A stretch of 49,728 nucleotides of DNA from assembly GCA_018814445.1 (NCBI GenBank), contig JAHIZV010000237.1, positions 1 to 49,728 of the forward strand. Reading direction: 5' to 3'. The first letter of the stretch is position 1; each line of letters starts with the position of its first letter. Source of the DNA: Verrucomicrobiota bacterium (lineage in GTDB: Bacteria > Verrucomicrobiota > Kiritimatiellia > JAHIZV01). The notes beneath the pieces were generated by a model. It ran no database searches and was not told where the DNA came from. It saw only the letters and a list, made by a program, of their open reading frames with translations. Both the position numbers and the translations under genes were made by a program. This document shows, in pieces, positions 14,048 to 18,876 of the stretch.

Positions 14048-15187
14048 TCAATCTTGATAACCTTCACCGACGCACTGCTGACTCAGCTCCGGATCTACCG
14101 TCAATTCGACCAGATTGCCGGGAGCCATCCGGAGTACCTTCTTCATCTCCAACCCCAGCAATATTACGTTTAATCGCGCGCTCTTCACCCCCAGATGACG
14201 GACCATCTGATCGACGGAAACGGGCCCTTCGAGCAACGCCGAGACGACTGATTTTTCTTCTTCCGACAACTGCAGTCGCGGGCGCCCGGAGGCTTCCGGG
14301 TCCGTGCGATCCGTAATCAGGAACTCAAACTCCTCGATGATATCTTCGACGTCTTCGACGAGGCGCGCGCCGTTCTTGATCAGGCGATTCGTTCCGCGTG
14401 ACGTCGGCGAGTCCACTCTTCCCGGCACGGCGAAAACACTCCGCCCCTGCTCAAGCGCGATGTCCGCCGTGAGCAATGCGCCGCTTTTAGGCGGCGCCTC
14501 GACGACACAAGTCCCCAGACAAAGTCCGCTGACGATTCTGTTTCTGTATGGGAACGTCGTACGATCAGGCTCGCGACCGAGCGGAAACTCCGAGATCACC
14601 GCTCCCTGCCCGGATATCTCCTCGGCAAGCCCTTCGTTCTCAGGCGGGTACAGTTTATCCAGGGCGCTTCCGATGACCGCGAGCGTTCTCCCCCCGCCTT
14701 TCAGTGCACCACGGTGAGCGGCAGTATCGATCCCCCGCGCAAGGCCGCTCACCACCGTGTAACCGACCTTCGCGAGCTGGTAGGCCAGGCGATCGGCCGT
14801 CTGTTTTCCATACGTCGTCGACCTCCTCGATCCGACCATTGCAATGGCATGCCTGTCACGTTTGACGAGTTCGCCCCGCACGTAGAGCGCGAGCGGCGGG
14901 TCGTAGATTTCCTTGAGGCGGTCCGGATACTCCTCATCCACGGGCGTCACCAGGCGGGCTCCCAGCCTTCCGGCCCGTTTTTCCTCTTCCGCCGGATCTT
15001 TCGTCTCACGCTGTCCGACAATGTTTCCGGCCACGTCCCTGCCTATCCCCTTAACCTTGATAAGATCGTCCTGAGATGCCTGCAAGGCCTCAGAAAGCGA
15101 ACCGAAGAACTCCTTCAGGCCGCGGACACGCGTGGGCCCGAGGTTGTCGATCATGTTGGCGAGAATGTGGGCGGAGCGTTCGTTCAT
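14048..15187 (-). CDS. dprA: DNA-processing protein DprA/Smf
   Basis: AIVGSRRSTTYGKQTA / GLARGIDTAAHRGAL / LAVIGSALDKLYPPEN / ISEFPLGREPDRTTFPYRNRIVSGL / GALLTADIALEQGRSVFAVPG. Confidence 0.95.
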   Translation of the reverse strand: MNERSAHILANMIDNLGPTRVRGLKEFFGSLSEALQASQDDLIKVKGIGRDVAGNIVGQRETKDPAEEEKRAGRLGARLVTPVDEEYPDRLKEIYDPPLALYVRGELVKRDRHAIAMVGSRRSTTYGKQTADRLAYQLAKVGYTVVSGLARGIDTAAHRGALKGGGRTLAVIGSALDKLYPPENEGLAEEISGQGAVISEFPLGREPDRTTFPYRNRIVSGLCLGTCVVEAPPKSGALLTADIALEQGRSVFAVPGRVDSPTSRGTNRLIKNGARLVEDVEDIIEEFEFLITDRTDPEASGRPRLQLSEEEKSVVSALLEGPVSVDQMVRHLGVKSARLNVILLGLEMKKVLRMAPGNLVELTVDPELSQQCVGEGYQD

Positions 15188-15206: not shown

Positions 15207-15242
15207 GAATGGGAGAAAGGGAGATTGGGGGAAAGGGGGAGA
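15207..15242. repeat. Degenerate octamer array (consensus GGGAGAAA), G-quadruplex-type motif, left arm of inverted pair
   Basis: gaatgggagaaagggagattgggggaaagggggaga; GGG-N5-GGG-N5-GGGGG-N3-GGGGG on + strand. Confidence 0.9.
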
Positions 15243-15250
15243 AGACACAG

Positions 15251-15676
15251 CTATGACCTATCCACAACATAATCTTCAGCAGCCTCCTTGAGCAGATTCG
15301 CGACGCCACACCACTTGCGGGGTGACGTCATCATATTTACGAGGCCGCCACAGATATGCTCATACTCGCTATCAAGCAAGACATATGTTTCCCGGTCGAT
15401 GTATCCGCACTTTGCGGCATACTCTAACCAGACCTGTTTTTCCGCCGCCTCACCGTCAGCGTCACTGAGTTTACTGATGAAGTGTGCTTCATATCTTCTT
15501 TTGCGCCAGGCTTCGGCAATGTTTGAGCATACCGATCTGGAGGAACGACGGATCTGGTCTGTGAGCGAATAGCGCTCCTCCTTCGGCCACCTCTTAGACA
15601 GCTCGAATAGCTGCATCGACTGGTCCATTGCAGATCTGTAGACGCGTAAATCCCGAAAATGCTTGATGGGTATCAC
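15251..15676 (-). CDS. Four-helix-bundle protein (S23 / intervening-sequence protein family)
   Basis: FRDLRVYRSAMDQSMQLFELSKRWPKEERYSLTDQIRRSSRSVCSNIAEAWRKRRYEAHFISKLSDADGEAAEKQVWLEYAAKCGYI: characteristic family pattern (LTDQIRRSSRSVCSNIAEAW). GTG start with AGAGGAG upstream. Confidence 0.93.
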   Translation of the reverse strand: MIPIKHFRDLRVYRSAMDQSMQLFELSKRWPKEERYSLTDQIRRSSRSVCSNIAEAWRKRRYEAHFISKLSDADGEAAEKQVWLEYAAKCGYIDRETYVLLDSEYEHICGGLVNMMTSPRKWCGVANLLKEAAEDYVVDRS

Positions 15677-15716
15677 GCATGACTCCTCTATCCCCCCTGG
15701 TTATTCTTACTCCTGC

Positions 15717-15755
15717 TCTCCCTTTCCCCCACTCGCCCTTTCTCCCATTCTCCGC
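15717..15755. repeat. Degenerate octamer array (CTTTCTCC-type), right arm of inverted pair
   Basis: Reverse complement ggagaatgggagaaagggcgagtgggggaaagggag closely matches the 15207-15242 arm. Confidence 0.9.
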
Positions 15756-15813: not shown

Positions 15814-16419
15814 TCAATCAGCCGACGATTTCCGCCGCTTCTTTCCGAAGAGCTCCATCTGTGCGTCGCGCAGGAGACCGTAGTTCTTGAAGATACGGAT
15901 GATCTGAAGAAGGTCGGATTTTTCGTAGTTCTTTTTTGTATCGATGGAGGCGGCGAGTTCGAGAAGCATGGTGCGGAAAGGTATGACTCCGTCGATGCCC
16001 ATTGACTTGAACAGCTCCAGCGCGTCCTTCTTCAATGAAGCCGATGACGGAAGATCGGGGACGCACAGGATGCGCGCGACCCTGCCTTCGCCGAGATGAG
16101 CCGACATCTTCTCAACCACTTTGTCTTCCGCAAACTTGAATATCTCGGGAGACTGTTTGAGCACGGCCGGACTGAACCGGTCCGTATGCCATCCGCGCAC
16201 GCCGATGACCGCCCTCGCGATGTGCTGCAACTGACTCGACCCCCAGATCACCGCCTTGGAAATCCTCTGCTCTTTCACTTCCGGATTGAGGATGACAAGA
16301 TCGACTTCCTCATCGAGGCGTTTCGCCCGGGCCGCGACCTGGTATTTTACAGGTTGCTGAACAAGGAAACCCAGGCTCTCGAAGTATTCGCGCGCAATCC
16401 ACTCACTGACAGCAGACAT
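15814..16419 (-). CDS. Conserved-looking hypothetical protein, possible nuclease-fold
   Basis: MSAVSEWIAREYFESLGFLVQQPVKYQVAARAKRLDEEVDLVILNPEVKEQ...; start at 16419 overlaps aroB stop (16403), suggesting an operon. Fold assignment is only inference. Confidence 0.7.
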   Translation of the reverse strand: MSAVSEWIAREYFESLGFLVQQPVKYQVAARAKRLDEEVDLVILNPEVKEQRISKAVIWGSSQLQHIARAVIGVRGWHTDRFSPAVLKQSPEIFKFAEDKVVEKMSAHLGEGRVARILCVPDLPSSASLKKDALELFKSMGIDGVIPFRTMLLELAASIDTKKNYEKSDLLQIIRIFKNYGLLRDAQMELFGKKRRKSSAD

Positions 16420-17491
16420 TCCACACCTCCTTGAGGACCCCGTCCGAAATCTCGCAACCCGTGTCGACCTTGCCGATCGCACCGGCCAACACGAATCGAA
16501 GAGCTTTCCCCACTGTTTTCTTGTCGAGCGTCATGGCCGAACGGAGTTCCTCCCATGAATAATCTGAAACCGAAACCGGAAGATCACAGCTCTGCAGAAG
16601 ACGTCTGATCCGCGCGGCATCCCCGGCGTCCAACCCGTGATGACGAACGGACAACTCAGCGGCGAATACCATGCCCACTGCAATGGCCTCTCCGTGTAGA
16701 AACTTCCCGTAGCCGGAAACCTGCTCGAGGGCATGCCCAAGGGTGTGACCGAAGTTCAGTATCGCGCGCAGGCCGCCTTCCCGTTCGTCCTGCCGGACGA
16801 CTTCCGCCTTGATCTCACAACAACGGGCGATCACCTGGTCAAGAAGGCCGCCGCGCTCTTCGATGAGTTTCCCCATGTTGGCTTCAAGAAGAGCGAACAG
16901 TTCAGCATCCCATATAATGCCGTATTTCACCACTTCGGCCATGCCCGCCACAAACTCACGGCGGGGCAATGTCGCGAGCGTGTCGCTGTCCACCAGCACC
17001 AGGGCGGGCTGATGAAACGCGCCGATCAGATTCTTGCCTTGCGGCAGATTGATGCCGGTTTTGCCGCCGACCGCGCTGTCGACCATCGCCAGCAGACTCG
17101 TAGGAACCTGCACGAGCGTGATCCCCCGCAGGTAGCTCGCAGCCGCATATCCTGCAATATCCCCCACGACTCCGCCTCCGAGAGCGACTATGAATGATTT
17201 CCGGTCTAGCGGAACCTCCAGCGCTTCGTCATATAGCTTGAAGATCTCTGATTCCGACTTTGAGCTTTCACCCGCCGGAATCACGACACGCTTTGCGGTC
17301 ACGCCGGCCTCCGACAACGACGCCTCGCATGCATCGCCGTAGAGCGGGTCAACATTCGAGTCGGATACGATCAGACAGACCGATCCGGCTGACCTGTCGG
17401 CGCACTTCACGCCCAGATCCTTCAGCAGGCCCGGCCCGATGCAGATCGGGTACGATCTTTCTCCCAGATCAACTGTTACTTCTCTCGACAT
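16403..17491 (-). CDS. aroB: 3-dehydroquinate synthase
   Basis: VALGGGVVGDIAGYAAASYLRGITLVQVPTSLLAMVDSAVGGKTGINLPQGKNLIGAFHQP...NFGHTLGHALEQVSGYGKFLHGEAIAVGM. Confidence 0.96.
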   Translation of the reverse strand: MSREVTVDLGERSYPICIGPGLLKDLGVKCADRSAGSVCLIVSDSNVDPLYGDACEASLSEAGVTAKRVVIPAGESSKSESEIFKLYDEALEVPLDRKSFIVALGGGVVGDIAGYAAASYLRGITLVQVPTSLLAMVDSAVGGKTGINLPQGKNLIGAFHQPALVLVDSDTLATLPRREFVAGMAEVVKYGIIWDAELFALLEANMGKLIEERGGLLDQVIARCCEIKAEVVRQDEREGGLRAILNFGHTLGHALEQVSGYGKFLHGEAIAVGMVFAAELSVRHHGLDAGDAARIRRLLQSCDLPVSVSDYSWEELRSAMTLDKKTVGKALRFVLAGAIGKVDTGCEISDGVLKEVWNVCCQ

Positions 17492-17739: not shown

Positions 17740-18876
17740 ATGCAAATCTTCGTTCCTAAAGAGCTGAAGACCGGGGAAACCCGCGTACCCGTCATTCCGC
17801 CGACGATCGAGAAACTCGTCAAGGCGGGTGCGGATATAGCGGTTGAATCCGGCATCGGCGAGGCCATCGGACTGACCGATGATGCCTACACGGCCGTGGG
17901 CGCCAAGGTCACATCCGACCGCGACGGATCACTGTCGTCTGCAGACATAGTCATCAGGCTCAACAAGCCGTCACCCGAAGAGGTCAAACAGTTGAAGCCC
18001 GGATGCATTCATATCAGCTATGTTGATCCGTTTAACTCCCCGGAGCTGGTGAAAGCCTTTGCCCAGGCAGGAATCAATGCGATCAGCATGGAGATGATTC
18101 CGCGCACGACTCTGGCCCAGAAAATGGACGCCCTCAGTTCACAGGCGAATCTCGCGGGCTACGTTGCGGTTGTCATTGCGGCCGAACGCCTTACCAAGGT
18201 GCTTCCCATGATGGTAACTCCGTCCGGTACGATCAATCCCGCCCGCGTGTTCATTATCGGCGCCGGTGTTGCGGGCCTCCAGGCCATCGCGACCGCCAAG
18301 CGCCTCGGCGCGCGCGTGGATGCGTTCGACACGCGTCCCGTGGTCGAAGAGCAGGTGAAGTCCCTCGGTGCGCGCTTCGTCAAGGTCGATCTCGGCGAAA
18401 CGGGCCAGACCAAGGACGGCTACGCAAAAGCGCTGACGGAAGAGCAGCTCCAGAAACAGCGTGATGCCATGGCGAAATACTGTTCACAGGCGGACATCGT
18501 AATCACGACGGCCCAGGTCTTCGGCAGGAAAGCTCCTGTGATCGTTACGGAAGACATGGTTGCCGGCATGCAGCCTGGAAGCATCATCGTCGATATGGCG
18601 GTCGAGACCGGCGGCAATGTGGTCGGCTCAAAGCTCGGCGAAGAAGTCGATGTGAACGGCGTGAAAGTCATCGGTTTGGCGAACCTGCCGGGCCAGGTTC
18701 CGGTCGCGTCCAGCCAGATGTACTCAAACAACGTCGGTGCTCTTCTCGAGCACTTCTGGGATAAGGAAGCAAAAGTCCTGAAACTGGATCTCGAAGACGA
18801 GATCATGGACGGGGCTCTCATTGTCCAGAATAACGAAGTTCGCAACGAAATGATCAAGACTGCTATTGCGCAATAG
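17740..18876 (+). CDS. pntAA: NAD(P) transhydrogenase subunit alpha, part 1
   Basis: MQIFVPKELKTGETRVPVIPPTIEKLVKAGADIAVESGIG...SSQANLAGYVAVVIAAERL...VFIIGAGVAGLQAIATAKRLGARVDAFDTRP. Confidence 0.95.
   Translation: MQIFVPKELKTGETRVPVIPPTIEKLVKAGADIAVESGIGEAIGLTDDAYTAVGAKVTSDRDGSLSSADIVIRLNKPSPEEVKQLKPGCIHISYVDPFNSPELVKAFAQAGINAISMEMIPRTTLAQKMDALSSQANLAGYVAVVIAAERLTKVLPMMVTPSGTINPARVFIIGAGVAGLQAIATAKRLGARVDAFDTRPVVEEQVKSLGARFVKVDLGETGQTKDGYAKALTEEQLQKQRDAMAKYCSQADIVITTAQVFGRKAPVIVTEDMVAGMQPGSIIVDMAVETGGNVVGSKLGEEVDVNGVKVIGLANLPGQVPVASSQMYSNNVGALLEHFWDKEAKVLKLDLEDEIMDGALIVQNNEVRNEMIKTAIAQ

Follow-up and report, generated by a model that had tools for sequence, protein, structure and literature searches.

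What is a small four-helix-bundle gene, enclosed by two inverted arrays of a G-rich octamer, doing beside dprA in a protein-gene operon? This question was raised by a 49,728-nt stretch of DNA from a Verrucomicrobiota bacterium (the window), which is part of a 137-kb contig in a 4.06-Mb metagenome-assembled genome, labelled G000. An earlier note, made from the letters of the window, had described one S23/IVP-type gene between inverted octamer arrays and had proposed that the whole was an insertable cassette. The features are collected in Table 1.

Table 1. Element of the window and the host genes beside it (positions in the window).
Feature	Position	Strand	Remarks
Whole element, S23 gene and both inverted arrays	15207..15752	.	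Arm alignment; flanking genes adjacent without the element in relatives
Left arm, (GGGAGAAA)-type octamer array, outer end GAATGGG	15207..15244	+	38 nt
Right arm, GGGAGAAA-type octamer array, inverted relative to left arm	15713..15752	-	40 nt
S23 / 23S rRNA IVP / TIGR02436 four-helix-bundle protein gene	15251..15676	-	141 aa, GTG start
dprA, downstream host gene	14048..15187	-	Insertion context, outside the element
Conserved gene between aroB and dprA, without Pfam or NCBIfam match	15814..16482	-	Insertion context

The two arms gave a local alignment score of 28.0, while none of 790 placements of the same geometry in the rest of the window exceeded 14 and the best of 1000 Markov-shuffled flanks scored 17, which confirmed the described arrangement of one S23 gene between inverted arrays. 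The arms were located where the note had placed them (15207-15241 and 15720-15752), and each proved a few bases longer. The outer sequence common to both arms was GAATGGGAG, and a strong stem was predicted for the arms as RNA. An Rfam search of the window matched no family, and no reverse transcriptase (RT) adjoined the S23 gene, in agreement with the statement that rRNA and RT are missing near it. As a separate observation, several class members share the conserved gene at 15814-16482 in its place between aroB and dprA, and its start may lie further in because its frame overlaps aroB.

The protein of the window is filed as S23 family, as the note had said. It matched PF05635 with an E value of 1.1e-30 (106.4 bits, curated cut-off 33.8) and TIGR02436 with 1e-28 (99.7 bits, curated cut-off 24), and the bAvd and DivGenRetAVD profiles matched it weakly, below cut-off. 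Its AlphaFold model was a four-helix bundle (pLDDT 88.9) which, by target length, reached a TM score of 0.91 with Xcc0516 (2gsc) and 0.89 with phage Avd (4dwl). The S23 protein Xcc0516 is a homopentamer. To our knowledge, no function has been assigned to S23 proteins since they were first found in 23S rRNA, despite two solved structures, and we know of no catalytic domain in them. Among S23 copies at different sites, synonymous codon differences outnumbered non-synonymous ones, a pattern that fits selection on the protein. Phage carriage of the window subfamily was rejected as a candidate, since no relative was found among 2.9 million viral contigs. A genome scan of one group for the Xanthomonas Xcc0516 locus returned only relatives of 46-61% identity. 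We also noticed in G000 (C178:3600-10207; L006, L008, L009) a tandem-S23 frame of 303 aa with two domains, lying close to a divergent S23 gene; the arm units of the two differ.

Inverted arrays were found to be a general feature of S23 genes. There were nine S23 matches above cut-off in G000, and most of those inspected lay between inverted short arrays, with units that vary by element (GTCCAAAG, GAGGACGG, GGGTTTC, GGTTGAT, CGAACAT). S23 genes and control ORFs were then compared by one fixed score on their 250-bp flanks. In the class sample, inverted arms were detected at 51 of 78 S23 genes and at 11 of 375 control ORFs; two of these 11 were divergent S23 genes and several were GxxExxY genes. 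In a multi-phylum sample, whose S23 genes were taken from a scan of 84,980 species, the counts were 52/78 against 3/124 (p = 7e-25), and the positives came from records named Acidobacteria, Bacteroidetes, Chloroflexi, Verrucomicrobia, Planctomycetota, Cloacimonadota, KSB1, Deltaproteobacteria, Nitrospirae, Paceibacterota, Stahlbacteria and Auribacterota. A third group gave 20/28 against 1/23, and about 2-4% of controls were positive across samples. On cyanobacterial plasmids all 12 genes annotated "four helix bundle" or "S23 ribosomal" had inverted arms, including copies at nrdB/nrdA, cas6/cas4 and cmr2/cmr3. About a third of S23 genes were without detectable inverted arms. Direct-orientation flanks were not enriched in the class or multi-phylum samples, and insertion into a pre-existing tandem array, which would give such flanks, was therefore rejected. 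All these results showed a general rule: an S23 gene is enclosed by two tandem arrays in inverted orientation, whose 7- or 8-nt unit is specific to the element. Of the check that the note had suggested, a search of four-helix-bundle genes for the same flanking octamers, the inverted arrays were borne out as a general companion, with a unit that differs from element to element.

The same association was seen from the side of the arrays. When about 1 Mb was scanned for periodic inverted pairs, most of those of gene length enclosed S23 or S23-like genes and the others were short gene-less pairs, although the proportion with S23 is biased because the stretches were mostly picked for S23 or the octamer. 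All three S23 genes read within cas operons (cas6/cas4 and cmr2/cmr3; L328, L329, L334) had inverted arms like those seen elsewhere, so their position can also be read as insertion; judged from sequence, the cas association may reflect insertion and not function.

The composition of the arms was determined in 123 S23 elements. The best period was 7 or 14 in 74 of them and 8 in 44, and the left arm was richer in G than in C in 91%. The note had seen G-quadruplex-type arms here, and each arm of the window does contain four G-runs; as a common feature the G-quadruplex fails, with four GGG runs in only 12 of the 123 left arms. It is incidental, and the constants are the 7- or 8-nt period and the inverted orientation.

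The element was then sought as an insertion. In relatives within the class, aroB or the conserved gene after it lay directly next to dprA with no S23 gene between, and the spacer was short in several of the S23-less genomes. An empty site at the dprA-to-15814 locus was thereby established at class level, and the exact insertion join is unreadable there because these relatives are distant, at 50-60% protein identity. In one relative without S23 (G006), the gap before dprA (L053:2240-2440) had a single array of another unit, GAACACC/GAACACT/GAACAGC/GAACATC.

Closer pairs were found among cyanobacterial plasmids. The element was present in plasmid C of Trichormus variabilis ATCC 29413 and in a Scytonema plasmid, and the same site was empty, with neither arms nor gene, in Nostoc linckia NIES-25 and Tolypothrix PCC 7601 (plasmids 97.5% identical). 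The empty site read AAAAAGTAATTAACAAATAA, while the filled site read AAAAAGTAAT, then the element, then GTAATTAACAAATAA, with GTAAT on both sides; these 5 bp are therefore duplicated. At a second site in Nostoc plasmids, TTCTA (5 bp) flanked both sides of the insert. Two other filled/empty pairs showed no clean target duplication, and for this reason a 5-bp target duplication at the two plasmid sites is suggestive only, as read from these sequences. No target duplication was visible at the window copy or at miniature copies of its element. At two sites the S23 genes were 99.7% identical while the flanks were 83-94% identical, indicating that the divergence of the insertion site predates the element. 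These comparisons showed that the S23 gene and its arms are one unit, present or absent together, and the idea of an insertable cassette was both borne out and widened. The mobility of the element is well supported, and its mechanism we infer further below.

Arm units followed the protein that they enclose. Arm similarity was correlated with S23 protein identity (Mantel r = 0.47, permutation maximum 0.07), with the same result after GC correction, and mean arm similarity was 0.10 below 40% S23 identity (<40%) and 0.70 above 70% (>70%). Part of this correlation could be shared descent. Arm likeness across phyla at 50-60% protein identity is harder to explain without constraint; among relatives of the window protein in different phyla, the units were often GGNGANNN or near it, as judged by eye. 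The proposal that the protein binds G-rich arrays is accordingly recast: recognition of a G-quadruplex is dropped, and this co-variation links every S23 lineage with a unit of its own.

Arrays were counted genome-wide by pattern searches in 116 genomes of the class. GGGAGAAA arrays had 38 matches in G000 and 0-5 in each of the 115 other genomes. GGAAGTTT arrays had 610 (G009), 86 and 60 (G067) matches in three species of one genus, 3 in two more, and 0 in 111 genomes. The S23 genes of the first two of these species have the GGAAGTTT unit, and in G067 neither of the two S23 genes examined, of three, has it. The test of a third unit was mixed, as ATGGTT arrays in G105 occurred only at its S23 element, and G065 had scattered arrays with no S23 gene beside those inspected. 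In two tests of three, almost no gene-less array pairs lay outside the lineage that has the matching S23.

The GGGAGAAA-type octamer was present at some thirty further places in G000, several of which were tight convergent pairs with the outer end GAATGGG and predicted strong hairpins; for the two units checked, adjacent arrays were convergent in 19 cases and divergent in 0. The note had regarded arrays at many loci without the gene as evidence against its cassette. Such loci literally occur in G000, yet they are often convergent gene-less pairs, and the unit is scarce in the 115 other genomes, so that miniature derivatives of the element fit these arrays better than unrelated repeats. Outside the class, a gene-less pair of roughly 200 bp with TCAGAAG-type arms interrupts the S23 gene of another element in Nostoc N6 (L348, NZ_CP026682.1, about 1280-1560) and encloses a separate hairpin. 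Two further G000 loci (L104:7331-7398 in C115 and L111:9883-9958 in C130) each had a single GGGAGAAA arm and, after it, a TTACTGAATATTCA...GATGAATAT palindrome that is similar at the two loci and may be one more miniature derivative.

Partner enzymes were sought at cut-offs of E <= 1e-10 for RT and 1e-8 for Y1_Tnp. S23 was present in 98 of the 116 class genomes, Y1 transposase in 82 and RT in 51. No RT was detected in G015 (16 S23 genes, 97% complete) or in G009 with its 610 array matches, and no Y1_Tnp in G009 or G048, the genomes richest in GGAAGTTT arrays; nine genomes with at least 3 S23 genes had neither an RT nor a Y1 match. Both were therefore rejected as obligate partners, and no candidate transposase in cis or trans was common to all S23-rich genomes tested. 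G000 had a single partial RT match, on a contig other than that of the window.

One further family came to notice because it recurred among the best-scoring control genes. GxxExxY proteins (PF13366, PDDEXK_3, PD-(D/E)XK), which are unrelated to S23, had inverted arms at 22 of 23 loci (L114:12570-12959, L123:8323-8706, L124:7890-8363 and 18014-18382, L145:2016-2438, L265-L293), with units such as CACAGAG, CGCAAAG, CGCCAAG and CACGAAA and arrays that often begin ACCAC. Their co-occurrence with S23 was the strongest of the three families (Fisher p 3e-7). They are absent from nine genomes with at least 3 S23 genes, and GxxExxY as an obligate nuclease partner was rejected as well.

Several known systems resemble the element in part. 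The 23S rRNA intervening sequence (IVS) of Coxiella burnetii has an S23 ORF and a 28-bp terminal stem and was called a selfish element, and tandem heptamers GACAGAT of strain-variable copy number lie upstream of its ORF (PMC4990558). Like it, the window element has an S23 ORF inside stem-forming terminal inverted repeats; unlike it, the element lies outside rRNA and its arms are themselves tandem arrays. REPIN/RAYT systems, with convergent inverted pairs dispersed in intergenic DNA and one cognate gene type per repeat family (PMC3116915), share the dispersed pairs and predicted hairpins and are the closest working model, but here the enclosed gene is S23, it lies between the arms, no Y1 transposase is found at the repeat, and the arms are 7/8-nt tandem arrays instead of REP palindromes. 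G-rich heptamer arrays of Xanthomonas and Nostoc form many convergent inverted pairs (70 in Xcc, 75 in Xac) that were left unexplained, in a paper that saw no overall connection with mobile elements and makes no mention of S23 (PMC4692102); these and the cyanobacterial tandem heptanucleotides are likewise 7-nt arrays, whereas S23 genes lie between the arrays here. The Avd protein of diversity-generating retroelements has the same fold, but no RT, template or variable repeat was found at the window locus. MITEs share gene-less inverted-repeat derivatives, insertion/absence polymorphism and possible target duplications, and differ in that the element described here ends in tandem arrays of its own unit and has no known parent transposase. 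Because membership among IVS, DGR and REPIN each fails on a tested feature, the element is placed in no named family and is REPIN-like in layout. No paper that ties S23 or GxxExxY genes to inverted short arrays was found in open-licence PMC full text, and a prior description in subscription papers or preprints is possible.

The best explanation, which we consider probable, is that the window holds one copy of a widespread mobile element with array ends and with S23 as its end-binding specificity factor. That the S23 segment is a mobile element is very likely and that the arms are its functional ends likely, while the part given to S23 is favoured only slightly. The protein would bind its own arrays, or the hairpin that they form in single-stranded DNA or RNA, would bring the two element ends together, and would mobilise its own element as well as gene-less copies in trans; the strand-cutting enzyme would be encoded outside the element and supplied by the cell or by another element. 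Gene-less convergent pairs, and the presence of an almost identical element at a shared site of diverged plasmids, could also be produced by homing, with the array pairs as ordinary chromosomal repeats and the S23 gene inserting into their loop. The Trichormus/Nostoc linckia site is empty of any array, however, arm units co-vary with the protein, and in two tests class genomes outside the matching lineage are almost without arrays, which makes homing unlikely. It is similarly doubtful that S23 acts like Avd and passes a hairpin RNA to an RT in trans: the fold match, the strong predicted RNA stem of the arms and the excision of S23-bearing rRNA IVS elements as RNA by RNase III (PMC4990558) speak for it, and the lack of RT matches in G015, G009 and the nine genomes described above speaks against it.

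A RAYT, that is a Y1 tyrosine transposase, might move the paired repeats in trans with S23 as a passenger, as the combination of gene-less inverted pairs and a single cognate protein resembles REPIN/RAYT (PMC3116915) and Y1 families are frequent in the class. This is improbable given that the units track S23 and that G009 and G048 had no Y1_Tnp match. In addition, IS200-type Y1 transposition gives no target duplication, which was counted against it. The occurrence of S23 in cas and nrd operons, and its listing as a candidate cas-associated gene (PMC3936711), would suit a host-function or defence gene with the arrays as regulatory hairpins or terminators, but inverted heptamer arms flank S23 at the cas and nrd loci just as they do elsewhere, insertion sites are unrelated and gene-less pairs exist, and we consider this very improbable. 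A cassette whose protein recognises a G-quadruplex, to which the four G-runs in both window arms had pointed, is hardly credible when so few left arms share the feature and an octamer period also suits duplex or hairpin recognition.

The mobile element with S23 as its specificity factor therefore stays the preferred reading, and these results suggest that the S23 gene of rRNA inserts and the scattered heptamer repeats are both parts of a single, overlooked class of mobile elements. Strain typing has relied on bacterial heptamer repeats for decades, and we know of no explanation for them. Evenly balanced in our judgement is the fuller view of this class: in at least twelve phylum-level groups, its ends would be tandem arrays of a 7- or 8-nt period whose sequence varies freely, and a pentameric four-helix-bundle protein that co-evolves with them would read these ends, in place of a transposase that reads a fixed terminal repeat; the same ends would have been adopted by the unrelated GxxExxY genes, and rRNA IVS and the cyanobacterial and xanthomonad heptamers would be special cases or debris. 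The link between S23 and heptamers gives S23 a function that can be tested, namely to recognise the array of its own element, and with it a predicted target repeat for each S23. It also offers another reading, as inserted elements, for the S23 genes on the list of candidate cas genes, and a novel partner in strand transfer would amount to a new route of DNA movement.
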